This document shows positions 4,968-20,174 of a stretch of DNA of 64,000 nucleotides, piece after piece. This stretch comes from Providencia zhijiangensis (GTDB lineage: Bacteria > Pseudomonadota > Gammaproteobacteria > Enterobacterales > Enterobacteriaceae), in NCBI RefSeq assembly GCF_030315915.2, contig NZ_CP135990.1, positions 2,542,001 to 2,606,000 of the forward strand. Direction: 5' to 3'. The translations under genes were made by a program, and so were the position numbers. Positions within the stretch are counted from its first letter, which is position 1, and each line of letters begins with the position of its first letter. Under the pieces are notes generated by a model. The model worked only from the letters and a program-made list of their open reading frames with translations, had not been told where the DNA came from and searched no databases.

Positions 4968-5394
4968 GGTAAACGACCTTAGCACGAGACGTAAATGCTT
5001 GAACCATATTATTGGCTAGCTCTTTGAATATTTTACCGAATGCCAACTCAATCAGCTTATTGGTAAATTCAAAATCGAGATGAAACTCAATTTTACAGGC
5101 ATCGGCACTCAAAGGAATAAACTGCCATCCCCCAGATAAGGTTCTAAAAGGGCCTTCAACTAACTGCATTTGGATACGTTTATTGTCTTCCAACGCATTT
5201 TTCGTAATGAAGGTTTTGCTAATTCCCGCTTTTGAAACCTCAACCGATGCCGTCATTTCATCAGAATTTTGGCTAATAATTCGGCTTCCAACGCATCCCG
5301 GTAAAAAACTTGGATATGAAACCACATCATTCACAAGTTTATACATTTGTTCTGCGCTAAAAGGGACTAACGCAGAGCGACTAATCTGTGGCAT
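4960..5394 (-). CDS. ratA: Type II toxin-antitoxin system RatA family protein
   Basis: A 144-residue START/polyketide-cyclase-like protein. It carries the conserved N-terminus [33 protein letters not shown] and [13 protein letters not shown]. coli RatA has been reported to bind 50S subunits and block 70S formation, while mitochondrial homologues (COQ10) bind ubiquinone, so the physiological role is debated. The ATG at 5394 has AGGA seven bases upstream and the family length; the in-frame ATG at 5451 adds 19 non-homologous residues. It is divergent from smpB. Confidence 0.93.
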
Positions 5395-6077: not shown

Positions 6078-6441
6078 GGGGCTGATTCTGGATTCGACGG
6101 GATTTGCGAAACCCAAGGTGCATGCCGAGGGGCGGTTGGCCTCGTAAAAAGCCGCAAAAAAATAGTCGCAAACGACGAAAACTACGCACTAGCAGCTTAA
6201 TAACCTGCTTAGAGCCTTCTCTCCCTAGCCTCCGCTCTTAGGACGGGGATCAAGAGAAGTCAAACCCAAAAGAGATCGCGTGGATGCCTTGCCTGGGGTT
6301 GAAGCGTTAAACTTAATCAGGATAGTTTGTTGATGGCGTGTCTGTCCGCAGTTGGCAAATGAAATTAAAGACTAGACTAAGCATGTAGTACCGAGGATGT
6401 AGAAATTTCGGACGCGGGTTCAACTCCCGCCAGCTCCACCA
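6078..6441 (+). ncRNA. ssrA: Transfer-messenger RNA (tmRNA, ssrA)
   Basis: The RNA starts GGGGCTGATTCTGGATTCGA and ends in the T-arm GGTTCAACTCCCGCC followed by AGCTCCACCA, so the tRNA-like ends pair (GGGGCUG with the 3' CAGCUCC). The resume codon GCA is at 6168 and the tag reads ANDENYALAA, stopping at TAA 6198-6200. Its 364-nt length matches the family. Its 3' end is the attachment site of the integrative element that follows. Confidence 0.97.
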
Positions 6442-7866: not shown

Positions 7867-8114
7867 CTTATTTGTACCAGCTCAAATTTGAGCTGGTACA
7901 CTAACAGCACGTAGCTATACATCACCTAGACCTCAGACCTGTACCAAATCCAGAAATTAAAATATGCTTTTAGGTCATTCTATGCACGGTCCAATCATGA
8001 CAGTTGCTACAAGATATATGTATTAGTATTTGAGTAAGGTTCTTACATAAATATAACGATGCTGATCTGTATAAGACAGTTGTAATTTACAGAAATAAAT
8101 CTTATTATTTACTT

Positions 8115-8338
8115 GCTACCACTCTGGGCACCTTTTATCCCTGCACGTTAGTCATGCTCGTACGAGGTGTACGGGGCTGGCCAGTAGTCGACTGGCGCCG
8201 TAAAAGGAGTCCGGTATGAAACAGAAAACCGTTCTGGTACGCCAGTATCAGCGTTTTCGTTTAGGCCGTTGGGAGGACGTGTGTATGCACACGCGCTCCC
8301 TACCTAAACGTTAATGTCATGTCCCCAGTAGTGGTAGC
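8115..8338. other. Inverted-repeat-bounded, multi-hairpin segment (candidate structured RNA or mobile cassette)
   Basis: The ends pair: GCTACCACT (8115-8123) with AGTGGTAGC (8330-8338), then CTGGG (8124-8128) with CCCAG (8324-8328) after a one-base bulge, then AC/GT. Inside are further helices: CTCGTAC/GTACGGG (8157-8175), GCCAGT/ACTGGC (8180-8196), and a long stem of 8, 5 and 6 bp between 8258 and 8310. The segment is GC-richer than its surroundings. It carries a small reading frame at 8216 and ends four bases before the stop of the minus-strand nuclease gene. No flanking target duplication was seen. Confidence 0.6.
8216..8314 (+). CDS. Candidate 32-residue small protein
   Basis: ATG at 8216 is preceded by AAAAGGAG (8202-8209) at ideal spacing, and the frame runs 32 codons to TAA. 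The product is strongly basic: it begins MKQKTVLVRQYQRFRLGRWE and has an Arg/Lys-rich C-terminus. I do not recognise it. The codons from ~15 to the end lie inside the long hairpin 8258-8310, so translation and folding would compete. The Shine-Dalgarno falls between two predicted hairpins. Its reality rests on the ribosome binding site and the unusual composition only; it could be a chance frame in a structured RNA. Confidence 0.4.
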   Translation: MKQKTVLVRQYQRFRLGRWEDVCMHTRSLPKR

Positions 8339-8341
8339 ATC

Positions 8342-10522
8342 TTAAATTTCAGTCATCATCATATTATAGTGTTCTATGTCCCCAGTCTCTTCAAACACTC
8401 GTTTAAACATATCGATATACACGCCTGCTGATGCCTCTTCTTGAAGACGAATGTTACGACTGTCTGCGTGTGAATTGCGGTTGATAAAACGATAAAATGC
8501 ATTAAACCTAGGTTCACGATTATTCTCTGCTAGAGTATTCAGTACACTGTAGAGGCGCTCATTTTTTCCTGAAAAACTAAAATAATGTTCAAGAATTTGG
8601 CGCATCACATTTGGAATAATCACGCCAGAAGGTGTGTCGTTACTAGCCTTACGCAATACATACCAGAGTGCTTGATAGTCATTGAGTAGTTCCTTCTCTG
8701 TAATAGTACTGACACTGCTGAATTGACCTTTAGTAATACGATACAGTTGCCAATCTGCTGGCTTCCTACCTACTGGTCGACCTCCGCTTGAGAGTAGAAG
8801 CTCCTGAAAGAAGAACAGACTATGTGTGAGTATTATCACCTTCCCGGCGTAACGAGGCTTAATAATTTCATGCTGAATTAACGCAGCTACTTCGAAAATA
8901 TAATTCTGAGATAAGCTGGATATTGGGTCGTCAATGACGATAAGACGAGGCCTATTATCCGATTGATTGCGACTGTTCCTGCCTTTACAAGCTTCGATAA
9001 AGTACAGGAATGCAATTAATGTTTTTTCACCTTCACTAAGGCTCTGAAATACCGGACAATCAGAGCTCTCACCCACTCTACTGAGCCGGTAAGACTCAAC
9101 TCCCTCATCACATCGAACGATACTGAAACTATTTATGCCTAATGAAGTTAACGCATTATTAATGTTCTGCACGGTGCTGTCTATATTGACAGTTTCTGTG
9201 TATTTCTGTGCAATTTCTTTTTCAGTATTATCTATGTTTTTCTTAAGGTCTTCTGACTCAGATTCCTGAGCTCGCCTAGTTTCTTGTAATACAGTCAGTT
9301 TAGTACGCTGTTGCTCAATTGCTTCTGAGGAAAGGTGACGTATATGTGCAAAAACACGGTTTGTCAGGGACGTACGCTCTACTGTATAGTTCTCTGCGAG
9401 GCGGTTGTTTTCATTGATTTCCCCATTTAGTTCTGAGAGTGCTTGCTGTAAGATTGTCATTTCATCAACGGTGCAACGCAGGCTAATACGTATTGAAGGT
9501 TCTATAAGCTTCTGTGAGATTGCATTCTGGTTTGATTGAGCTAATTGCTCAAATTCAGATAACCGCACGAGTATCGGTGATTCAGCACCAACTATTGGGC
9601 AGTTGTTCAGATTCTCTCTCAGACCGGGAAATAAGTTTATCCACTCTGAATAACGTTGCTCAAGCTTTTGCAGCGAACTCATAGCGGTCTCCCATGAACG
9701 ATCAAATAACGCAGTAATTTCCTTTTGGAGATGTTTACCATCTATAGATGACTGACAGAATGGGCAAACATCCCCCTCAATCCATTCTGCTCCTCGTGCA
9801 ATCCAGTCGCTATTGTTGAGGCGCCTTATAGCAGCAGCAAGAACACTGTCACCCGATGGAACTAGTGGCTCGGCTAACAAGGTAAGTTCCTCTTCTGTAA
9901 ATATGAATGGAGGAAACTCATTAATAGGTTGAACACGGCTACCTTTACTATTTTCCAGACGCTTTAGTTCCTCGCACAACGCCGTTGTACTGGTTATGAT
10001 AGTATCAGAGGATGACATGATTTTTTGGTAAAGGTTTTCAGTACGTTTTGCTCCCTCCATCAGAACAGCCGCAGTTGAAGACCTTACCTCAGCAGAACTG
10101 CTAAAAATAAGAGCTGCGCAATCGCTACGGGCCTCTTGCTGCTGAGAATCATTTTCTTGCTGAGAGAGGTTATTGGCCTGCAGTGCAACACGCAACTTGT
10201 TCACATGTGTTTCTAATACGTCTATTTCATCAGCAATAACGCTATTTTCTTCATTAAGTGTAAAGATACCGGGCTGAACAGCCTTACCGTGGAAAAGATC
10301 TTCAACAAACTGATGATTAAAGACGGTATATTGCATATCTAGTGGAGGGTGAAGAGTGCATTGTTCGTATTCATCATTATCTTGCTGGTAAAAAAATCCA
10401 GATATCGTCGATTTACCTGCCCCATTCTGACCATAAATTAAAGTGACATAGCTGCTAATATCCATCTGGGCCGCTTCATCATAGGAATAACTGCGCACTC
10501 CGCGCAGAGAAAGTATGCTCAT
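8342..10522 (-). CDS. RloC/PrrC-like ATPase-anticodon nuclease (AAA_13 family)
   Basis: The 726-residue protein starts with an ABC/SMC-like nucleotide-binding half (Walker A YGQNGAGKST, residues 30-39). It then has long coiled coils interrupted by a CPFC motif (C253, C256), like the Rad50/RloC zinc hook. The second ATPase half follows, with signature LSEGEKT (~490) and Walker B LIVIDDPISSLS (~525). The C-terminal domain contains R641-x3-E645 and His685 in RNSHAD, matching the Arg-Glu-His arrangement of PrrC/RloC tRNA anticodon nucleases. Such nucleases are usually linked to type I restriction genes and cut tRNA when restriction is compromised, and this gene lies directly after hsdR. Nuclease activity is inferred. 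Confidence 0.72.
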   Translation of the reverse strand: MSILSLRGVRSYSYDEAAQMDISSYVTLIYGQNGAGKSTISGFFYQQDNDEYEQCTLHPPLDMQYTVFNHQFVEDLFHGKAVQPGIFTLNEENSVIADEIDVLETHVNKLRVALQANNLSQQENDSQQQEARSDCAALIFSSSAEVRSSTAAVLMEGAKRTENLYQKIMSSSDTIITSTTALCEELKRLENSKGSRVQPINEFPPFIFTEEELTLLAEPLVPSGDSVLAAAIRRLNNSDWIARGAEWIEGDVCPFCQSSIDGKHLQKEITALFDRSWETAMSSLQKLEQRYSEWINLFPGLRENLNNCPIVGAESPILVRLSEFEQLAQSNQNAISQKLIEPSIRISLRCTVDEMTILQQALSELNGEINENNRLAENYTVERTSLTNRVFAHIRHLSSEAIEQQRTKLTVLQETRRAQESESEDLKKNIDNTEKEIAQKYTETVNIDSTVQNINNALTSLGINSFSIVRCDEGVESYRLSRVGESSDCPVFQSLSEGEKTLIAFLYFIEACKGRNSRNQSDNRPRLIVIDDPISSLSQNYIFEVAALIQHEIIKPRYAGKVIILTHSLFFFQELLLSSGGRPVGRKPADWQLYRITKGQFSSVSTITEKELLNDYQALWYVLRKASNDTPSGVIIPNVMRQILEHYFSFSGKNERLYSVLNTLAENNREPRFNAFYRFINRNSHADSRNIRLQEEASAGVYIDMFKRVFEETGDIEHYNMMMTEI

Positions 10523-10814: not shown

Positions 10815-13800
10815 TTAATGTTGAGCTTCACTCGCCTTTCCTAATCCCTTCATTAACACATCAAACATCAATCCAGCAAAGCCTTTCGCTATCGCTTCGT
10901 TAGACAGGAGTTTCATTGCCATCTCATTATGAACATCCATACTCTCAATAATGGCATTATTGATTGACTCAGGGAATTGACCGAGCATGGCTTGTTCTTT
11001 TGTATTACTGCGCAGTTGATCCATAACGACTTCATTTTCTGAAATTTTGCCTGCAATGGTATTTGCGTAATTAAGCATATCATTTTCAGATAAACCATCT
11101 TCAATAAACAAGTCGTTCATTCGCTGGATGATCTCGTTAAGCAATTCAGTTTTGGGATCTTTCGGCACAGCACCTGAGCCTTCTTTTGCCGCAGGCAAAT
11201 AGGGCTTTGGTTCTTCTCCAATCATAAGGCCAAGCTGTAAATCGGCTTCGCGTTGCTCGTGAAGACGGTAGTGCGTCATCACCACATCTGATAAATCAAT
11301 TTCGTCTTCCACAACATCGAGGCGCAGCAACGGATGGAGATATTTAGCGAAAATACTCAGCTTTTCTAATTCATAATCATCAAAATTGACAATCTGAGAC
11401 GTAAATTCGTAGTAGCGATAGAACGAGATGAGGTCTTTCTTGAACACCTCAAGAATGTCTCTCGCCTCTTTCGCGTGCTTTACGCTATTTTCAGCATACT
11501 TAATTTTTTTGTCGTTCTTCTCAATTTTTGCCTTAGACAGCTCCGATTGTGCAGCTCGAAGAACTTGCGACGCTTCTTTGTAACGGACAGAAAAGCGGTC
11601 AACAGCTGGCTTACACAAATTAGCGAGTTTGGCTTGATTTGCTTGCTTGTTGTTATACGTTTCAACAAACATCTCAACCTCTCTCCATTGATAAATACCA
11701 ACTTTGTCGAGCTTTTTCATTAGTTCATAGACAATGTTTGGATCAGAGACATCAGCTAGTTCTGCCGTTTGGAAATATACTTTAAACTCTGCCAATATAT
11801 CTTCAGGATCATTAACGAAGTCGAGCACAAAGGTTTTTTCCTTACCTTTATAAGTGCGGTTTAACCTAGAAAGTGTCTGAATACACTCAACGCCTTTTAA
11901 TGGCTTATCGACATACATCGCCACTAATTTCGGCTGGTCAAAACCTGTTTGGAATTTATTCGCCACCAGCATGACCTGATAATCTGAGGTATCGAATGCT
12001 TTACGCATATCGCGACCACGGAGATTAGGGTTCATATTATTTTCAGTGAAAGCATGATCAGGGAAATCAGGATCATTCACTTCTCCAGAAAATGCCACCA
12101 TTGCATTAACGTTAGTGTAGCCCTTTTCTTGCACATATTTTTCAAAAGCCAATTTGTAGCGTACAGCCTCTAAGCGGCTACTAGTGACGACCATTGCTTT
12201 GGCTTCACCACCTAACAAATACTTAATTTTATCATTGAAATGTTCAATGATAGTTTCCACTTTTTGAGCAATGTTGTAAGGGTGAAAGCGAACCCATTTT
12301 GCCATTTTCGATGCGGCTTTTTTGCTATCTACCTCATGATCTAAATCCGGATTTTTATGCGCTAATTGGTAAGCCACTCGGTAACTGGTGTAATTTTGCA
12401 GAACATCGAGAATAAAACCTTCTTCAATCGCTTGGCGCATTGAGTAGACATGAAAAGGCTGGGGTTTATTGGTATCGCTTGCAGGCTCATAAGGATTGGG
12501 CCTACGACCAAACAACTCTAGTGTTTTTGCCTTCGGTGTTGCTGTAAAAGCAAAGTAGCTGAGTTTATTCGAGCCTTTACGAGCTTCAAGTGATAAACGC
12601 AGCATATCTTCACTGTCTAGCTCTTCATCGCCATCTAGCTGCTCAGCCATAAGGACTTCACGCAGTTTACGAGCCGTTGTCCCTGTCTGGCTGGAGTGCG
12701 CTTCGTCAGCAATCACAGCGTAACTTCGGCCCGCAAGCGTTGAGTCTTGGCGTATCGCCTCTAGTACGTGAGGAAAAGTTTGAATGGTCACGATAATAAT
12801 AGAGGTGCTAGCCTTCAACTCCCCAGCTAATTGGCTGGATTTAGAGCCTTGAGCCTCTTCGCGGTTAACACGAGCAATCATCCCTTCGCTGTGGTCAAAC
12901 TGATAAATAGTATCCTGTAGCTGACTGTCTAACACCGTTCTGTCGGTGATCACAATAACAGAATCAAATACCTTATCCCCTGCTTGCTTATCAAGCTCAG
13001 GGTGACCGATATCATAGTGTTTTGATGCTAATTGGTGAGATAACCACGCAATCGAGTTTGATTTACCTGAACCCGCACTGTGTTGAATGAGGTATTTATG
13101 GCCTGTACCTTCATGGTCTACGGTTCGGAGTAACTTAGAAACTACCGACCACTGATGGTAACGAGGAAAGATCAGCGTTTCTTTTTGACTAATTGAACCA
13201 TCTAAATTTTCAACATCTTTGACTTCAAGGTGAATATATCGCCCAAGGATAAGCAGTAAATTATCTTTTTGGAAAATTTCATTCCAAAGATAGGATGTCG
13301 CATAGCTGCCATCTTCGGGGATATCGTTCCCCTTACCACCTTCACTTGTTCCTTGGTCAAACGGTAAGAAATACGTATTTTTGCCATTCAAATGCGTGGT
13401 CATTGCCACGTTGTACTGACTAACCGCAAAGTGAACTAATGCCCCCCGTTTGAAGGTCAATAACGGTTCAGACTTATGTGTCTTCTTGTCTTTCGGTAGC
13501 CTGTCCTTCATATATTGCACTTTGGCATTATCAATTGACTGTTTAAACTCTGACTTAAGCTCACAAGTGGCAACAGCTATCCCATTCACGAATAGCGTTA
13601 AATCTAATCGACCGTCATAACCATTGGGTGAGTAAACCAGTTCTGGCACAACACGTAGAATATTTTGCTGATAACGAACCGCTGCCGTTGGGTTGAGCTC
13701 GTGATCTGGTTTAAAGCTGCAAAGATTAAACTTAGCACCTCGATTATTGACCTTGTTTCGCAATACCCAGAGTGTGCCTTCTTTTTTCAGTTCTTGCTCT

Positions 13801-14018
13801 AATGATTTGAGTAGCGCATCCGCCGTTGTATTTGGAAAGTGCTGCGCGAGTTTATCCCATTGCTCTGGCTGTGTAGCTTTCACAAACGTGATAACGTCTT
13901 CAGGATAAAGAGCCAACTCTTTGTTGTACTTGCTCGATTCGCCTAATAACCAACCGTGAGACAGCATTTGTTCAAGGATGTCGTTTTGGAATATTTTTTC
14001 TTGTGCTATATCAGACAT
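10815..14018 (-). CDS. hsdR: Type I restriction enzyme, restriction/translocase subunit HsdR
   Basis: A 1067-residue HsdR. The N-terminal PD-(D/E)xK nuclease shows D139 (GRLDLTLFVNG) and E153-x-K155 (CELKS). The SF2 motor carries Walker A HSAGSGKSNSIAW (~313-325), DEAH box in IADEAHSSQTG, motif III FTATPKAKT and motif VI QTLSRLNRTYKGKEKTFVLDF. A helical C-terminal part assembles on the methylase. It translocates and cuts DNA unmodified at the site specified by HsdS. The ATG at 14018 is preferred over 14039 because MSDIAQEKIFQ fits the family, and it overlaps the upstream gene stop by eight bases, implying translational coupling. It is the last gene of a five-gene operon. Confidence 0.95.
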   Translation of the reverse strand: MSDIAQEKIFQNDILEQMLSHGWLLGESSKYNKELALYPEDVITFVKATQPEQWDKLAQHFPNTTADALLKSLEQELKKEGTLWVLRNKVNNRGAKFNLCSFKPDHELNPTAAVRYQQNILRVVPELVYSPNGYDGRLDLTLFVNGIAVATCELKSEFKQSIDNAKVQYMKDRLPKDKKTHKSEPLLTFKRGALVHFAVSQYNVAMTTHLNGKNTYFLPFDQGTSEGGKGNDIPEDGSYATSYLWNEIFQKDNLLLILGRYIHLEVKDVENLDGSISQKETLIFPRYHQWSVVSKLLRTVDHEGTGHKYLIQHSAGSGKSNSIAWLSHQLASKHYDIGHPELDKQAGDKVFDSVIVITDRTVLDSQLQDTIYQFDHSEGMIARVNREEAQGSKSSQLAGELKASTSIIIVTIQTFPHVLEAIRQDSTLAGRSYAVIADEAHSSQTGTTARKLREVLMAEQLDGDEELDSEDMLRLSLEARKGSNKLSYFAFTATPKAKTLELFGRRPNPYEPASDTNKPQPFHVYSMRQAIEEGFILDVLQNYTSYRVAYQLAHKNPDLDHEVDSKKAASKMAKWVRFHPYNIAQKVETIIEHFNDKIKYLLGGEAKAMVVTSSRLEAVRYKLAFEKYVQEKGYTNVNAMVAFSGEVNDPDFPDHAFTENNMNPNLRGRDMRKAFDTSDYQVMLVANKFQTGFDQPKLVAMYVDKPLKGVECIQTLSRLNRTYKGKEKTFVLDFVNDPEDILAEFKVYFQTAELADVSDPNIVYELMKKLDKVGIYQWREVEMFVETYNNKQANQAKLANLCKPAVDRFSVRYKEASQVLRAAQSELSKAKIEKNDKKIKYAENSVKHAKEARDILEVFKKDLISFYRYYEFTSQIVNFDDYELEKLSIFAKYLHPLLRLDVVEDEIDLSDVVMTHYRLHEQREADLQLGLMIGEEPKPYLPAAKEGSGAVPKDPKTELLNEIIQRMNDLFIEDGLSENDMLNYANTIAGKISENEVVMDQLRSNTKEQAMLGQFPESINNAIIESMDVHNEMAMKLLSNEAIAKGFAGLMFDVLMKGLGKASEAQH

Positions 14019-14424
14019 TACAAGCACCCTTATCATCATCGCATCGATGCGAAATCCAAAGTTCGTTCAGTCGTATAGTTGGTAAATCACCATTATTATA
14101 AAATTTTATTTGTGAAAGATAGAAGCATAAACGAGCACTCGCTTCTCTAATTGACTGCGTGAGTAATTCTGTATCATTCGTCTTTGAAATTAAAGATATT
14201 AATGCTCGGGCTTCTTGCTCCGCTTTACTCGATAACTTTATTAGCAAATCACAGTCAATTACCTGAGAAATCGTAGTTCCACCAATTTTCAGTGGTTCAT
14301 TCAACCTTTTTTGGGCTTTGTTTAAAGCTTTATCTGTAACCTTTGATGAGTTATATGCTTGAATCATTGACGAAATAGCACTTAGCGAACTAACAAAAAG
14401 ATTAGCTATAGGTAGTAAATCCAT
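14011..14424 (-). CDS. Unknown 137-residue protein inside the type I restriction operon
   Basis: I do not recognise a family. The protein opens with a hydrophobic/amphipathic helix (DLLPIANLFVSSLSAISSMI), then a Lys-rich helical part and a region beginning IGGTTISQVIDCDLLIKLSS. Its helical middle ends in SARLCFYLSQIKFYNNGDLP, and the C-terminus has a Cys/His-containing tail (SHRCDDDKGAC). Its start overlaps the preceding stop (TAATG) and its stop overlaps the hsdR start by eight bases, so it is made in step with restriction subunits. It could be an accessory or control factor, or a membrane-associated partner of the DUF262 protein; that is inference. Confidence 0.85.
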   Translation of the reverse strand: MDLLPIANLFVSSLSAISSMIQAYNSSKVTDKALNKAQKRLNEPLKIGGTTISQVIDCDLLIKLSSKAEQEARALISLISKTNDTELLTQSIREASARLCFYLSQIKFYNNGDLPTIRLNELWISHRCDDDKGACNV

Positions 14425-16271
14425 TAGTTAGCTTCCTCCAAACACCATATTTGTTCCGCTATCTGGCGATACAACTCACATCGCTCTTTGATATCCGCTA
14501 CTTTCATTTCCGGATGAGCTTTAAACGCTAAGCCATTGCAAGAAAAAGCCTTATTAAAGTTAGGATTATTTTCATATGCTAATGGGTGTAGTGACTTAAC
14601 CAGTAAGTTTTCTTTGATATAGTGAGGAAGCTTATCTACATAAGTTTTATCGCTGTATGATTGATTTGTTCCTCTCTGTAACAGTACAAGTGCTCCAATA
14701 CTATTGCGTGTATTACGAAAATCATTTTGTTGCTCAAACTCGTCTTTATGATCATCGAAGTTGTTAGCCCATAAATGCTCAATCTCAAAAGGCTTACTTT
14801 TTACTGCATGATAATAAGTAGAAAAATTCGTATTCTCCCCTGCTAGACCATCTACATAACCTGATAAGCGTGAGAGTAAATATTTAACAAAACGACCATT
14901 TTGACCATGCAGGCGGAACCCCTCGAAGCCATCCCATGTCCCATCCATCTCATTAAGTTTTTTATCAAAGATAGCAAGTAGTTCACTGTATTCTTTGTTA
15001 CGTATTTCTTTAACCAGATTGTACATCGTGTAACGAATCGAACTCGCTGAGAAGTTACGAAAGTTAATCGCTCTGCGAACACAGAAAATATCAATGTATT
15101 TCGCGACAAGGTTCATTTTTTTATTGGCTAATTCAATGGAGTCTGTCGTTTTTAATGGCGCAAGCATTAAAGGATTACTTAGAGAGGTTGCTATACCCCA
15201 TTGATAGATGTAGTGAATCGAGCTAAGTTCAGGAATGATCTTTTCTTCCGCCTGACGAAGACGTTTATATGCATTCACGTAGTACTTAAATTCGGTGTTA
15301 ATAAACACATCAAACTCATTTTCACCAGCTTCAGCAAGGCCCATTCTAGAAAGATTATCTCTTACCCAATTATGAAAACGAGTACCTATTTTTTCGAAGT
15401 CTTCATTTAGTGAGCCAGCCTTACTTTGGCGGATTGATTCAGCGTATTTTGCTCTTAGCCATGCTTGCATAAATCGCTGGTCTTCTTCCTTTTCAAAAAC
15501 TTTGAGATCAATGATCGTTTGTTTCCAAAAATCATTCGCCTTTTGTCGCTTTTTATCGTCGCGATACTTAGATAACAAGAAGCCTTTCAACATTTCAGTT
15601 GGGGTTAAATTTAGGCCCCTGTCATTCATTGTCTCAAAAATGGTATAAGCATTATCATCGCTATATGCCACTATCTCAACAAGAACAACTAACTCCTTAA
15701 GCCAATCAATAAATAGAGGTAAGACCGTCTCATCAATACGATCTATGGGGAACGCATCACTGATATTTTGATAACGAGCAACCATATTAACCGTTGAAGC
15801 ATCAGCATCTTCAGGTGGCGCATACTCTCCTTTATTAAATAAAGCATCAAGACAAGCGATACGCTCTGGCACATCTATATTGAATGATTTTTGTCCGAAT
15901 TTCTCAGAGAAAATCATACCTGAAACAGCTTCATCTAAGCCAAGTTCTTGTTGTTTATTATTCAAGTAAATCAAAAATAACGTTAGCGATGTTAAGCGTT
16001 GTTGACCATCAATAATACTCCGCTTGCCTGCTTTTTCACTGAGGACAAAAGGACCTAAATAGTAACTGTTGTAATCAGCCACATCTTGACGTTGGTGTTT
16101 TGGGTCGTAGTTGTCCAAAAATGCATTACACAAGTCGGTAATGAGCTGCTCTATATGAGTTTGTTCCCAGCTATATTCACGCTGATAATAATCAACGGTA
16201 TATTTTTTATTATCGAGTACTTCTAAGATAGAGCGATTATTTGCATCAATTTTGTTTTCAAAACGACTCAT
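14424..16271 (-). CDS. DUF262/DUF1524 (GmrSD-like) protein embedded in the type I restriction operon
   Basis: The 615-residue protein carries the DUF262 (ParB/Srx-like NTPase) motifs YQREYSW (29-35) and IIDGQQRLTSL (86-96). Its C-terminal half holds a DUF1524-type HNH-like segment with FEIEHLWANN near residue 500 followed by NTRNSIGALVLL. This two-domain architecture is that of GmrSD-type type IV restriction enzymes that cut modified phage DNA. Here it sits between hsdS and hsdR, with 1-base TAATG overlaps on both sides. The ATG at 16271 has AAGGA eight bases upstream; an earlier start at 16295 would overlap hsdS more. Catalytic activity and target are inferred. Confidence 0.85.
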   Translation of the reverse strand: MSRFENKIDANNRSILEVLDNKKYTVDYYQREYSWEQTHIEQLITDLCNAFLDNYDPKHQRQDVADYNSYYLGPFVLSEKAGKRSIIDGQQRLTSLTLFLIYLNNKQQELGLDEAVSGMIFSEKFGQKSFNIDVPERIACLDALFNKGEYAPPEDADASTVNMVARYQNISDAFPIDRIDETVLPLFIDWLKELVVLVEIVAYSDDNAYTIFETMNDRGLNLTPTEMLKGFLLSKYRDDKKRQKANDFWKQTIIDLKVFEKEEDQRFMQAWLRAKYAESIRQSKAGSLNEDFEKIGTRFHNWVRDNLSRMGLAEAGENEFDVFINTEFKYYVNAYKRLRQAEEKIIPELSSIHYIYQWGIATSLSNPLMLAPLKTTDSIELANKKMNLVAKYIDIFCVRRAINFRNFSASSIRYTMYNLVKEIRNKEYSELLAIFDKKLNEMDGTWDGFEGFRLHGQNGRFVKYLLSRLSGYVDGLAGENTNFSTYYHAVKSKPFEIEHLWANNFDDHKDEFEQQNDFRNTRNSIGALVLLQRGTNQSYSDKTYVDKLPHYIKENLLVKSLHPLAYENNPNFNKAFSCNGLAFKAHPEMKVADIKERCELYRQIAEQIWCLEEAN

Positions 16272-17617
16272 TATTGAATTCCTTTTGGTTGCCAATCACG
16301 CACATCAATTTTGCCTGTTACTGCGGCTGAAATAAGAGCTGTTTTGCGTTCTTTTAATAACTCAATTGTGTTCATTACTTGTGCTTCAAGCCGCAAAAAC
16401 TTAGCTTCATTTTTTTTAATATAGTTAACTATCTCTATTTGTTCTTTTAACTGAGGAAGTATAGCGTTAATTGCAAGATAATCTTCTTTTGCTATATTTT
16501 GCATGCTACTACTAGCACCTTCTGCAGATAACGATATCTGATTTCTAAAACCTTCAACTGTCATAAAGTATGCTAAGAATTCAGCTTCTATATCAAAACT
16601 CTTATTAAAATTTGTTTGCCATAATCGATCAGGCAGGTAAATATTATCAATATCAACATTTACTAATGCACTAGCGCCAACCAATTCAGGAGTATTCATG
16701 CGACTTATGATGATTGCCCCTTTTCTGATAGGACACTTAACTCTTGGCAAGTCTTCTTGTAAAACCGTTTTATTTTCTTCTACACGAAAGCGTCTTGTAT
16801 AAACACAGCTTGTTTTTAATACACCAATTTCACCCGTTTTGGCTGGTGTATCCGCAGCATTGACGCTACATCCAGACTCTAATGATTGAATGAGATGCTT
16901 GAGTTTCAATACAACCCAATGCTCTGGCACTTCACCCAACCATTCCACACCTGAATCCTTCATTGGTACATCTGGGTTAAGCCCTTTGGTCACTGCGTGA
17001 GAAATTACTGCTTGACGTTTTTCTTTTAACAACTCAACCAGTTTTTCTTGCTTGGTGATTAGAGTGTCAACTTTGGCGGTTTCGCGATCGAGGAAGTTAG
17101 CGATTTTCTTTTGTTCTTCCATTGAAGGGCAAGGCATTTCAATATTGCTAAACGTCTCAGTTCTTACTACTTTCCTTAGCCCTGTATAAAAAGGCTTTAA
17201 ACCTTTAAATGTGTCAATATGGTAAAAATAATAATAGGCATAAGTTGGATAGCAACTATCAAAACAACCATATACATTATATGCACCAGTAATCATCCCA
17301 TTTAGTGGTGAGATACCTATAGTTCTTGGTGTTTCATCTATATCAAACAGGCAAAAAACCAGATCATTTTCATCGACTTTTTGATAAGTATCAAAGCTCT
17401 CAGGTATCTTTCCTTCACCTGAAGATATATCTCGAGGAATAATACCTTTTAGTGTTAGTGATAACAGCTGATAGTTAGATGATTTACTTCCAACAAGGCT
17501 TCTCTTCAAAAAAAACATACGCTTTGTTCTCTCAACATTCCAATTGGAAGGAATCTCCTGAAGCCACTCAACCCCTGAATCCTTATACTCAGGATAAGCC
17601 TTATAACGCCCCGCCAT
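16271..17617 (-). CDS. hsdS: Type I restriction-modification specificity subunit HsdS
   Basis: The 448-residue protein has the two-fold repeat typical of HsdS. DSGVEWLQEIPSNW (~13-26) and DSGVEWLGEVPEHW (~223-236) open two target-recognition domains. Each is closed by a conserved helix: KLVELLKEKRQAVISHAVTKG in the middle and IELLKERKTALISAAVTGKIDV at the end. The two domains recognise the two halves of a bipartite DNA sequence; their low mutual similarity implies two different half-sites. The start overlaps the hsdM stop (TAATG), and the stop overlaps the next start in the same way. Confidence 0.95.
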   Translation of the reverse strand: MAGRYKAYPEYKDSGVEWLQEIPSNWNVERTKRMFFLKRSLVGSKSSNYQLLSLTLKGIIPRDISSGEGKIPESFDTYQKVDENDLVFCLFDIDETPRTIGISPLNGMITGAYNVYGCFDSCYPTYAYYYFYHIDTFKGLKPFYTGLRKVVRTETFSNIEMPCPSMEEQKKIANFLDRETAKVDTLITKQEKLVELLKEKRQAVISHAVTKGLNPDVPMKDSGVEWLGEVPEHWVVLKLKHLIQSLESGCSVNAADTPAKTGEIGVLKTSCVYTRRFRVEENKTVLQEDLPRVKCPIRKGAIIISRMNTPELVGASALVNVDIDNIYLPDRLWQTNFNKSFDIEAEFLAYFMTVEGFRNQISLSAEGASSSMQNIAKEDYLAINAILPQLKEQIEIVNYIKKNEAKFLRLEAQVMNTIELLKERKTALISAAVTGKIDVRDWQPKGIQ

Positions 17618-19656
17618 TATGAATGTACCTCATTAAGCAATTGCATAATTTCTGCTGAGATCGCATCCAAATCAGCATCAATCTCGGCTAGTGCTCTCGG
17701 TGGTTCATAAACATAGAAATGGCGGTTAAATGGGATTTCATATCCAACAATACCCACTTCACCATCTTTCGGGTCTAGTTTACTTTCATCAATCCAAGCA
17801 TCCGGTACGTGTGGCAGAACTTCTCGAGCAAAGTAATCGGCAATATTTTCAGTGAGTGGTACGTTTTCGTTATCACGCAAATCAGGATTAGATTCAATCT
17901 GGCCTTTGGCTTTGCACACTTCAGCTTCATCGTCGTGCTCACCAAGGTGTTTGACAATCAGTTTTAACTGCACAGCACTTAGTTTAACATCCACCAGCTT
18001 GCTTTTTAGCTGCTTGAGGAATTTATCACGAGACAAATATTTTTCGGAGTCAAAGGAAGCGAGAGCATCAAGAATAGCTTGTTGGCTGATTTCATCCATT
18101 TTCAGCCAAACACTATCTGCTTGCAGAGCTTCAAGGCGTATAGCATCTTTCGGGTAAATGGCTAATTTCAGTGGGCGTTCAACCGTAATTCGACGATAGC
18201 CAAACGCTTTGTAATCAAAGATTTTACTAAAATCGTTTTCTACAAACTGACCGTATGTTTGCACGATTGTCTCAATCGCTTCTTCTGTTAGTTCTTTTCG
18301 CTTACTACCCAGTGATTTACGCATGACAGCATAAAACACGTTTTCATCATCGCCTTCAACTTCACCACCACCACTACGCCCGCGCCCACCTGTTTTCGCT
18401 CGCTCTTTTGACGCATTAATTAATTGAACCTTACCTTTGCGAGCAGTTGGCTTATGGTTAGATAACACCCAAATATAAGTGGCAATACCCGTGTTGTAGA
18501 ACATATCAGTAGGCAACGCCACAATTGCTTCGAGTAGGTCATTCTCCAGAACATAACGTCTAATTTCACTCTCACCGCTACCCGCTCCGCCAGTAAAAAG
18601 TGGGGAGCCATTTAGGATGATACCAATACGTGAACCACCTTCACTTTCAGGGCGCATTTTACTAATTAGGTGCATCAAAAACAGTAATGAACCATCAGAC
18701 ACGCGAGGTAAGCCCGCACCAAAGCGGCCTTCAAAACCTTTTTGGGTATGCTCATCAGTGATGTATTTTTGGATTTTCTTCCAATCCACACCAAAAGGTG
18801 GATTAGATAGCATATAGTCAAACTTATCACTGCGGAGCTGGTCATTCGATAACGTATTGCCCAGTTTGATATTATCGACCTTCTGCCCCTTAATCAGCAT
18901 ATCTGCTTTACAGATTGCGTATGACTCTGGGTTCAGCTCTTGACCGAATGCTGATAGAGAGGCTTTCTCGTTGAGTTTGTGGACATACTCCATACCAGAC
19001 GATAAGAAGCCACCGGTTCCTGCTGTAGGGTCATAGATTGAGCGTACCAAGCCTGAACTGGTTAACTCTTCTTCGTTAGTGAAAAGCAATGACGTTGTCA
19101 GCTCAACAATATCCCTTGGGGTAAAGTGTTCCCCTGCGGTTTCATTTGAGCTTTCGGCAAAGCGTCGGATAAGCTCTTCAAACACTAAACCCATACCATA
19201 GTTGCTAATGGCGTCAGGGTGAAGATCTGTGGTCGCAAAACGTTTTGCAACTTTATAAAGCAGGTCGGCTTCTTCCAATTTATCGATGGTATTAAAAAAG
19301 TCGAAATACTCAAAAATCTCACGGGCATTTGGGCTAAATGATTGAATATAATTCTGAAGATTATTCGCTACACCAGTTTCACCAAGACGGTTCAAATCCA
19401 TTTTTGAGGTGTTATAAAAGCTTAACTGCGCAGCATGGGTAAGTAGTTTGTCCTGCGCTTCAATCGGCATTGATTTTACTGCATCGTATTTAGCCAGAAC
19501 ATCAGCCTTTGTAGCAGCAAGGACACACTCTAAGCGCCTTAGCAAGGTGAAAGGGAGAATGATGCGTCCGTATTGAGATTGCTTGAAGTCGCCACGTAAC
19601 AGGTCAGCTACTGACCATAGAAATGCCGCTGTTGAAGAGAAATTGTTATTAGTCAT
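17617..19656 (-). CDS. hsdM: Type I restriction-modification DNA methyltransferase subunit HsdM
   Basis: A 679-residue N6-adenine methyltransferase. A helical HsdM N-terminal domain (~1-150) precedes the SAM-binding motif [10 protein letters not shown] (~209-218) and the catalytic NPPF (~285-288, NPPFGVDW). The [17 protein letters not shown] loop and long C-terminal region make it larger than EcoKI HsdM (about 530 residues). With HsdS it methylates the recognition sequence and protects host DNA. The ATG at 19656 is chosen; a GTG four codons earlier is possible, and neither has a strong ribosome binding site. It is the first gene of the operon. Confidence 0.95.
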
Positions 19657-20174
19657 TGTAATCAGCACATTGAATATTAAAAAAGTTAACTGATTGTACC
19701 TTTATAACAAGCCTAGTGGTAGAGACATACAACGCAGAAAATACAGATTATCCACCAACTTAGCCAAGTCAGTGAACATGGCCTTGATAAAACTGCAAAG
19801 CGAAATAATAACTTGCACGTCAATCATGGCCACTAAGTGAATAATTCTACAAACATATTAATAAACAAACCTCTATTCACTCACATCGTTCTCTTTGTAC
19901 TTAAGAGCCAAGTCATAATACCCATCACGATTAATATGCCAATGGAGCATACATTGCTGTACTAGCAATTTATAATAATTGTAGCGATCAACAAAAATTG
20001 GTCACAAATTTAGATAAATAGCTACTTCAATGTAAGATAACCAACGCATCAATACAAAATGTTGATATTACCGGAAACGGTTTTATCTAATATCAATTAC
20101 TGCACTTTATAAATAACGACTCTAGCGGACGTTAATGGCAGTAACGTCCGTTTCTAGTTAAGTTAGATACTCGT
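19657..20174. other. Gene-free stretch upstream of hsdM
   Basis: 518 bases with no supportable gene. It should contain the hsdM promoter (minus strand). CATGGCC occurs twice (near 19777 and 19834), and a hairpin lies at 20126-20150. Nothing else stands out. Confidence 0.4.
20126..20150. terminator. Stem-loop downstream of the YfjJ-like gene
   Basis: CGGACGTTA (20126-20134) pairs perfectly with TAACGTCCG (20142-20150) over a 7-base loop; TTTCTAG follows on the plus strand. It lies 25 bases past the stop of the minus-strand gene at 20175. There is no minus-strand T-run, so it may be an mRNA end hairpin rather than a full terminator. Confidence 0.5.

Follow-up and report, generated by a model that had tools for sequence, protein, structure and literature searches.

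The segment at 8115-8338 of the window, the 64,000-nucleotide stretch of Providencia zhijiangensis DNA analysed here (from a genome of 3.8 Mb), is almost certainly a structured mRNA that codes for a genuine protein. Comparison of its relatives indicates that this RNA-peptide module is co-inherited with an RloC-type anticodon nuclease in one enterobacterial clade. The module is probably a functional partner of RloC. Our favoured reading overall, to which we give about an even chance, is that this structured mRNA encodes a small protein which regulates, and probably restrains, ATPase-type defence nucleases. The link to RloC is the main point absent from the first-pass annotation, which had offered two readings of the segment, a non-autonomous mobile cassette or a structured regulatory RNA, possibly with a peptide. 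The second of these held up, with helices that covary and a peptide under selection; the first did not survive the single copy, fixed position and co-inheritance described below.

The segment lies on the + strand between the integrase gene and rloC, which is on the opposite strand. Its closing stem, P1, pairs 8115-8131 (GCTACCACTCTGGGCAC) with 8321-8338 (GTCCCCAGTAGTGGTAGC) through 9+5+2 = 16 pairs, with one bulged T and one C-C mismatch. Inside it lie the hairpins P2 (8157-8175, CUCGUAC-GAGGU-GUACGGG, 7 bp between 8157-8163 and 8169-8175) and P3 (8180-8196, GCCAGU-AGUCG-ACUGGC, 6 bp between 8180-8185 and 8191-8196), followed by a Shine-Dalgarno sequence that is also present in homologues (8202-8209, AAAAGGAG) and a 32-codon gene (8216-8314, MKQKTVLVRQYQRFRLGRWEDVCMHTRSLPKR; ATG at 8216, stop codon at 8312-8314). 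The 3′ half of the reading frame forms a further hairpin, P5 (8258-8310), of 8+5+6 bp in the minimum-energy fold. The same fold predicts a possible anti-Shine-Dalgarno segment at 8132-8139 (+ strand) with its partner at 8200-8207; by eye, comparable complementarity is visible in certain other lineages. At 54.0%, the G+C content exceeds that of the island (41%) and of the gap before the segment (33%), and 3 bases separate the segment from the nuclease stop codon (8342-8344). The sequence thus agrees with what had been described earlier, namely a 224-bp segment closed by 16 pairs, three inner helices, a ribosome-binding site and frame within it, a G+C content above that of the island, and abutment on the nuclease stop codon. 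Fold energy z-scores for the + and - strands were -5.0 and -7.0, and none of 200 dinucleotide shuffles equalled the segment.

Homologues indicate that the RNA fold is under selection. RNAalifold recovered P1 and the hairpin of the reading frame from 27 sequences, with changes on both sides at 17 of 27 pairs. When the named structure of 25 pairs was scored over the 27 sequences, 91.4% of cells were paired, compared with 79.1% after column shuffling and 31-42% with slid partners, a comparison biased in favour of the structure against its slid versions because it was derived from the same alignment. The covariation score was 0.423 against 0.234 ± 0.013 in shuffled alignments (0 of 500), controls that correct only partly for phylogeny. 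Each of the seven core P1 pairs showed double changes, with more changes within the coding region, several of them at P5 pairs. In an alignment-free arm swap, cognate P1 arms paired at a mean of -28.5 kcal/mol and arms taken across clades at -17.4, so that both arms of P1 are supported by sequence, fold, covariation and arm swap. A P2 stem was present 55-65 nt upstream of the ATG in 10 of 10 representatives, mostly with a different sequence, and a P3 stem 33-39 nt upstream in 13 of 13, one with a single mismatch. P2 and P3 pairing was lost on swapping strands, a test that is descriptive here because these helices were picked out by eye. Reading frames folded more stably than their synonymous shuffles in 15 of 16 cases, two of them marginal. 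Compensatory changes in homologues had been named beforehand as support for an RNA, and this is what the alignments returned for P1 and the reading-frame hairpin, with P2 and P3 persisting.

The inverted repeats at both ends and a G+C content above the surroundings could also suggest a MITE-like non-autonomous mobile element bounded by terminal inverted repeats. This candidate was rejected and is very improbable, being largely refuted by the data. The genome holds one copy, the arms diverge among lineages and covary so that the ends stay complementary, no terminal sequence is conserved, no target-site duplication was seen by eye, and the position is fixed relative to RloC.

Transcription of the module is predicted to start from a sigma-70 promoter at 8080-8108 (+ strand, TTGTAA-17-TATTAT; 9 of 12 consensus matches, 1.5 expected by chance), which would put the first transcribed base near G8115, at which the closing stem begins. 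In 20 of 21 elements, P1 is preceded at 5-9 bases by a -10-like box, the sequence read for L029 being too short. Given this spacing, the transcript most likely starts with P1, and the closing stem would probably form the 5′ end of the RNA.

The encoded peptide carries 6 R and 3 K (9 K/R) against 2 D/E in its 32 residues. Ten columns were invariant among 15 aligned rows (M1, K4, V6, V8, R13, G17, V22, R27, S28 and P30). Nonsynonymous divergence was below synonymous divergence in all 153 pairs of 18 representatives (median pN 0.27, median pS 0.75), with pN/pS of 0.07-0.49 among the 16 pairs listed, and about half of the differences in the peptide gene fell at third codon positions. The four peptides compared with the PHROG 21154 profile all matched it (E 1e-5 to 1e-11), as did peptides among the relatives. 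Together these comparisons indicate that the peptide is a real gene under protein-level selection. The same profile was also matched in the control genome, that of E. coli. The small gene lacked annotation at almost all loci inspected, so surveys relying on protein annotation would miss it.

Database searches placed the module outside named families. With Rfam 15 at both thresholds, the tmRNA was the only match in the window and the segment had none; the best candidate in the region, RAGATH-31, reached 23 bits where the threshold is 71.8. The peptide matched nothing in Pfam or NCBIfam, and the literature searched gave no description of the peptide or the RNA. The claim that no described family has this layout therefore needs one amendment: Rfam, Pfam and NCBIfam bear it out, and the peptide does match PHROG 21154, a family annotated as uncharacterised with no mention of RNA structure or RloC. 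The RNA-peptide module thus appears new, being absent from database families and from the papers found.

The neighbouring gene (rloC, 8342-10522, - strand, convergent to the module) encodes a 726-aa protein that matched Pfam AAA_13 (E 5e-100) and, in PADLOC, PDC-S06 and more weakly PrrC. A C253-P-F-C256 hook of CxxC type and an R-E-H triad (R641, E645, H685) were invariant among 39 aligned homologues, and the triad corresponds to the R692/E696/H737 pattern of GkaRloC (PMC2610378). Because these invariant motifs match the published zinc hook and catalytic triad, the neighbour was named RloC; it would be an RloC-type anticodon nuclease, for which excision of the tRNA wobble base is predicted. 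An AlphaFold2 model (mean pLDDT 83, pTM 0.46) placed long helices on either side of the hook, and Rad50 was its best PDB fold match. The surrounding order is a tmRNA gene (6078-6441), the integrase gene and then a defence island with rloC, hsdR, a GmrSD-like gene, hsdS and hsdM. At 10815-19668 of the window, a 137-aa gene that matched no family and the GmrSD-like gene (14424-16295) split the type I restriction operon. The tmRNA 3′ end (6419-6441) does not recur within the window even with up to 3 mismatches allowed, so the other end of the island was not found.

The pairing of module and nuclease recurs across enterobacterial replicons. In E. coli chromosomes, the segment was found in 7 genomes at 93% over the full stem-to-stem unit and in 31 at 80-90%; it was also found on plasmids of Rahnella, Enterobacter, Salmonella and Pantoea. 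The first six sites opened all placed it at the end of an RloC gene, in convergent orientation, and loci searched through RloC alone again showed the module adjoining RloC in the clade concerned, where the convergent pair is spaced by a few to about 40 bases. A P2-prophage type of the element occurred in 92 of 5426 E. coli genomes, and all 60 listed records of it touched an AAA ATPase gene, the query itself extending into the final bases of that gene. Within P2-like prophages, the module and RloC sit as a pair between the portal and replication-endonuclease genes.

A tree of 62 RloC proteins gathered the 39 module-bearing members into one clade (SH-aLRT 98), with the 23 outside it lacking the module at that site. 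Some of the 39 were found via the peptide, which biases the clade toward presence; it was RloC or the DNA segment that led to the plasmid, E. coli and genome loci. When three rows from the genus of the window (L130-L132), found via the peptide family, were added, the minimum number of changes on the tree was two. Among ten RloC-bearing genomes drawn from across the order, all four whose RloC fell in the clade or was at least 33% identical had the peptide, and the remaining six gave no convincing peptide match anywhere in the genome. RloC-protein and module distances were correlated (r = 0.92, 0 of 2000 permutations), and module DNA identity was still 45-69% where RloC identity was 31-48%.

Away from RloC, the peptide was found in phages and prophages, other gammaproteobacterial chromosomes and plasmids. 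None of 26 records or genomes with stand-alone copies gave an RloC match, with no virus record among them rated at least 90% complete. Roughly one in four of the stand-alone copies inspected has an XRE-ImmA pair upstream of it; by our own reading, those in L058, L059, L067, L069, L085, L087 and L108 follow putative XRE and ImmA/IrrE genes, and L108 carries an extra 161-aa gene that is putatively PIN-like. In L062, L081, L096 and L110 the peptide lies near a putative IS1595-family transposase. On a phage contig (L092:4986-5093) the peptide and closing stem stand beside putative nrdA/nrdB; we regard this copy as a candidate counter-defence gene. The closing stem is present in several stand-alone copies (L084, L092, L096, L111, L112) and missing in others, such as the XRE-ImmA group. 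Most stand-alone relatives are not near any recognised nuclease, which may point to a broader function of the peptide.

A second defence association was found with PDC-M12. The full P1-P2-P3-ORF-P1′ arrangement lies divergent from a PDC-M12A/B pair in three lineages, namely 4-kb E. coli plasmids (L135/L136) and two Acinetobacter lineages (L138 and L165), these too on small plasmids; M12A resembles AbiLi. Its occurrence in E. coli and both Acinetobacter lineages indicates that association with defence ATPases has arisen on more than one occasion. The peptide is absent from the PDC-M12 loci L164 and L166, which rules out PDC-M12 as its universal partner. At L137:1853-3974, the peptide module comes after a type VI retron (HTH_VI, RT_VI) and faces a DUF3800 gene that converges on it. 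The peptide was absent from all 11 strong RT_VI loci and from the Acinetobacter retrons L167 and L168, so L137 looks like a one-off, and membership in type VI retrons, which this locus had suggested, was rejected. Type VI retron DNA reportedly derepresses a small antiviral protein.

These neighbourhoods bear on whether the module is cargo, that is, a small gene with its own role that settled once beside an ancestral RloC and was kept by linkage. Peptide relatives beside many unrelated genes (XRE-ImmA, IS1595, nrdAB) and on plasmids are what cargo would predict, as are the six genomes with a stand-alone copy and no RloC match. Set against this, the module was kept in 39 of 39 clade members at the same place even though RloC diverged to about 30% identity, it diverged in close step with RloC, and it joined another defence ATPase, PDC-M12, separately. 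We consider mere cargo improbable.

Two exceptional sets of loci uncouple the components. In L129, RloC has shrunk to about 80 residues next to an intact module, a situation that fits a restrainer outliving its target, as an orphan antitoxin might. In L101 and L102, RloC is intact and identical to that of L094, the RNA still folds with P1, and the peptide is frameshifted by a one-base deletion (~5000-5066). These two loci are identical over 10 kb and hence count as one allele; the peptide is therefore not strictly required where RloC is present.

The L101 RNA, which keeps its P1 fold despite a broken peptide, would suit a model in which the RNA is the active part, as an anticodon-nuclease decoy or as an antisense to the 3′ end of rloC mRNA, with the peptide secondary or the function dual. 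The both-side changes inside the coding region at P5 and the stability of reading-frame folds relative to synonymous shuffles point the same way. Further, the module faces rloC and no terminator was found on the rloC strand; a transcript reading through rloC would be antisense to the module. The peptide, however, is conserved beyond what the RNA would need, as the pN/pS values above indicate, stand-alone relatives keep the peptide while many have no P1, and no anticodon-arm-like hairpin was noticed by eye. An RNA acting in its own right is rather improbable.

We instead favour a partnership centred on the small protein. The + strand segment would form one transcription unit, a structured mRNA of about 224 nt with its ends locked by P1, and the product would be a 32-residue basic protein that partners the adjacent defence ATPase-nuclease. 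The P1-closed mRNA would set its own lifetime and translation level, P1 more likely protecting the RNA ends. In healthy cells the protein, perhaps with the RNA, would most likely restrain the nuclease, as the type I restriction enzyme masks PrrC; once infection halts host gene expression, the short-lived product would be lost and RloC released. We infer this direction of effect, restraint rather than activation, at near-even confidence. It is favoured because of the PrrC precedent, the module's persistence where RloC is lost, and the phage-borne copies, which could be phage-borne inhibitors. Several points weigh against any partnership: the L101/L102 allele tolerates an intact RloC with a broken peptide, RloCs outside the clade and the PDC-M12 relatives in L164 and L166 do without the module or peptide, and passages searched on experimentally studied RloCs ascribe to them a zinc-hook and DNA-end switch of their own, naming no partner of this kind (PMC2610378, PMC3874168).

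The opposite sign of regulation was also weighed. The peptide could be an activator or second effector, encoded by an mRNA that is silenced by its structure and translated upon infection, the peptide then switching RloC on or being itself toxic. The short T4 peptide Stp turns on the anticodon nuclease PrrC (PMC2610378), in several lineages pairing takes up most of the Shine-Dalgarno region (mean unpaired probability 0.24-0.72), and the tolerance of RloC for a broken peptide would agree with activation as well. In the energy model, however, deleting the 3′ arm of P1 did not open the start region and closed it further in many lineages, so Hok-like activation through 3′ processing gained no support. 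The Arg-rich peptide is unlike hydrophobic type I toxins, and it persists after RloC loss. Overall, activation seems unlikely.

RloC is a widespread suicide tRNase that needs silencing, and the same two papers ascribe its control to an internal switch (PMC2610378, PMC3874168). If a restraining partnership is correct, a conserved RNA-peptide partner would provide external control for a large RloC clade spanning enterobacterial plasmids, islands and P2-like prophages. Somewhat doubtful, though still a possibility to consider, is a broader scheme: a transferable RNA-peptide control cassette, conserved in fold and in a peptide of about 31-38 residues, that joins different ATPase defence nucleases as regulator or trigger (convergent with RloC, divergent from the PDC-M12/AbiL-like pair) and that phages carry alone, possibly for counter-defence. 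The module makes restraint of defence ATPase-nucleases directly testable in E. coli K-12.

The general idea of a small structured mRNA controlling a toxin is already known, and four systems invite comparison. Retron msr-msd RNAs are likewise structured, closed by inverted repeats and furnished with internal hairpins, and the relative at L137 adjoins a type VI retron. The RloC loci differ in having no reverse transcriptase: none is annotated in the stretches shown around L002-L007 and L038-L048 (L045 being without annotation), none was noted among the ORFs of the window, and the RT_VI profile was not found in its genome. The module also encodes a conserved protein. Type I toxin-antitoxin mRNAs (hok, aapA, tisB) are short and strongly structured, encode a small protein and form long-range 5′-3′ pairing. 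The module shares this short, structured small-protein mRNA with 5′-3′ pairing, but its peptide is basic and not a membrane toxin, and removal of the 3′ arm leaves the modelled start region closed; with 9 K/R and 2 D/E in 32 residues, assignment to this class through a hydrophobic small toxin was rejected. The PrrC/EcoprrI/T4 Stp system offers an anticodon nuclease of the same superfamily with linked partners and a short peptide involved. There the mask is the type I restriction enzyme and the peptide is phage-derived, whereas here peptide and RNA are encoded beside the nuclease. The fourth is RloC itself, with which the neighbour shares the ABC ATPase core, CxxC zinc hook and R-E-H triad (Davidov and Kaufmann 2008, PMC2610378; PMC3874168). 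The published RloC is described as self-regulated by its zinc hook and DNA ends, the passages searched in both papers mentioning no linked peptide or RNA (PMC2610378, PMC3874168), whereas the RloC described here is adjoined by a module that encodes both.
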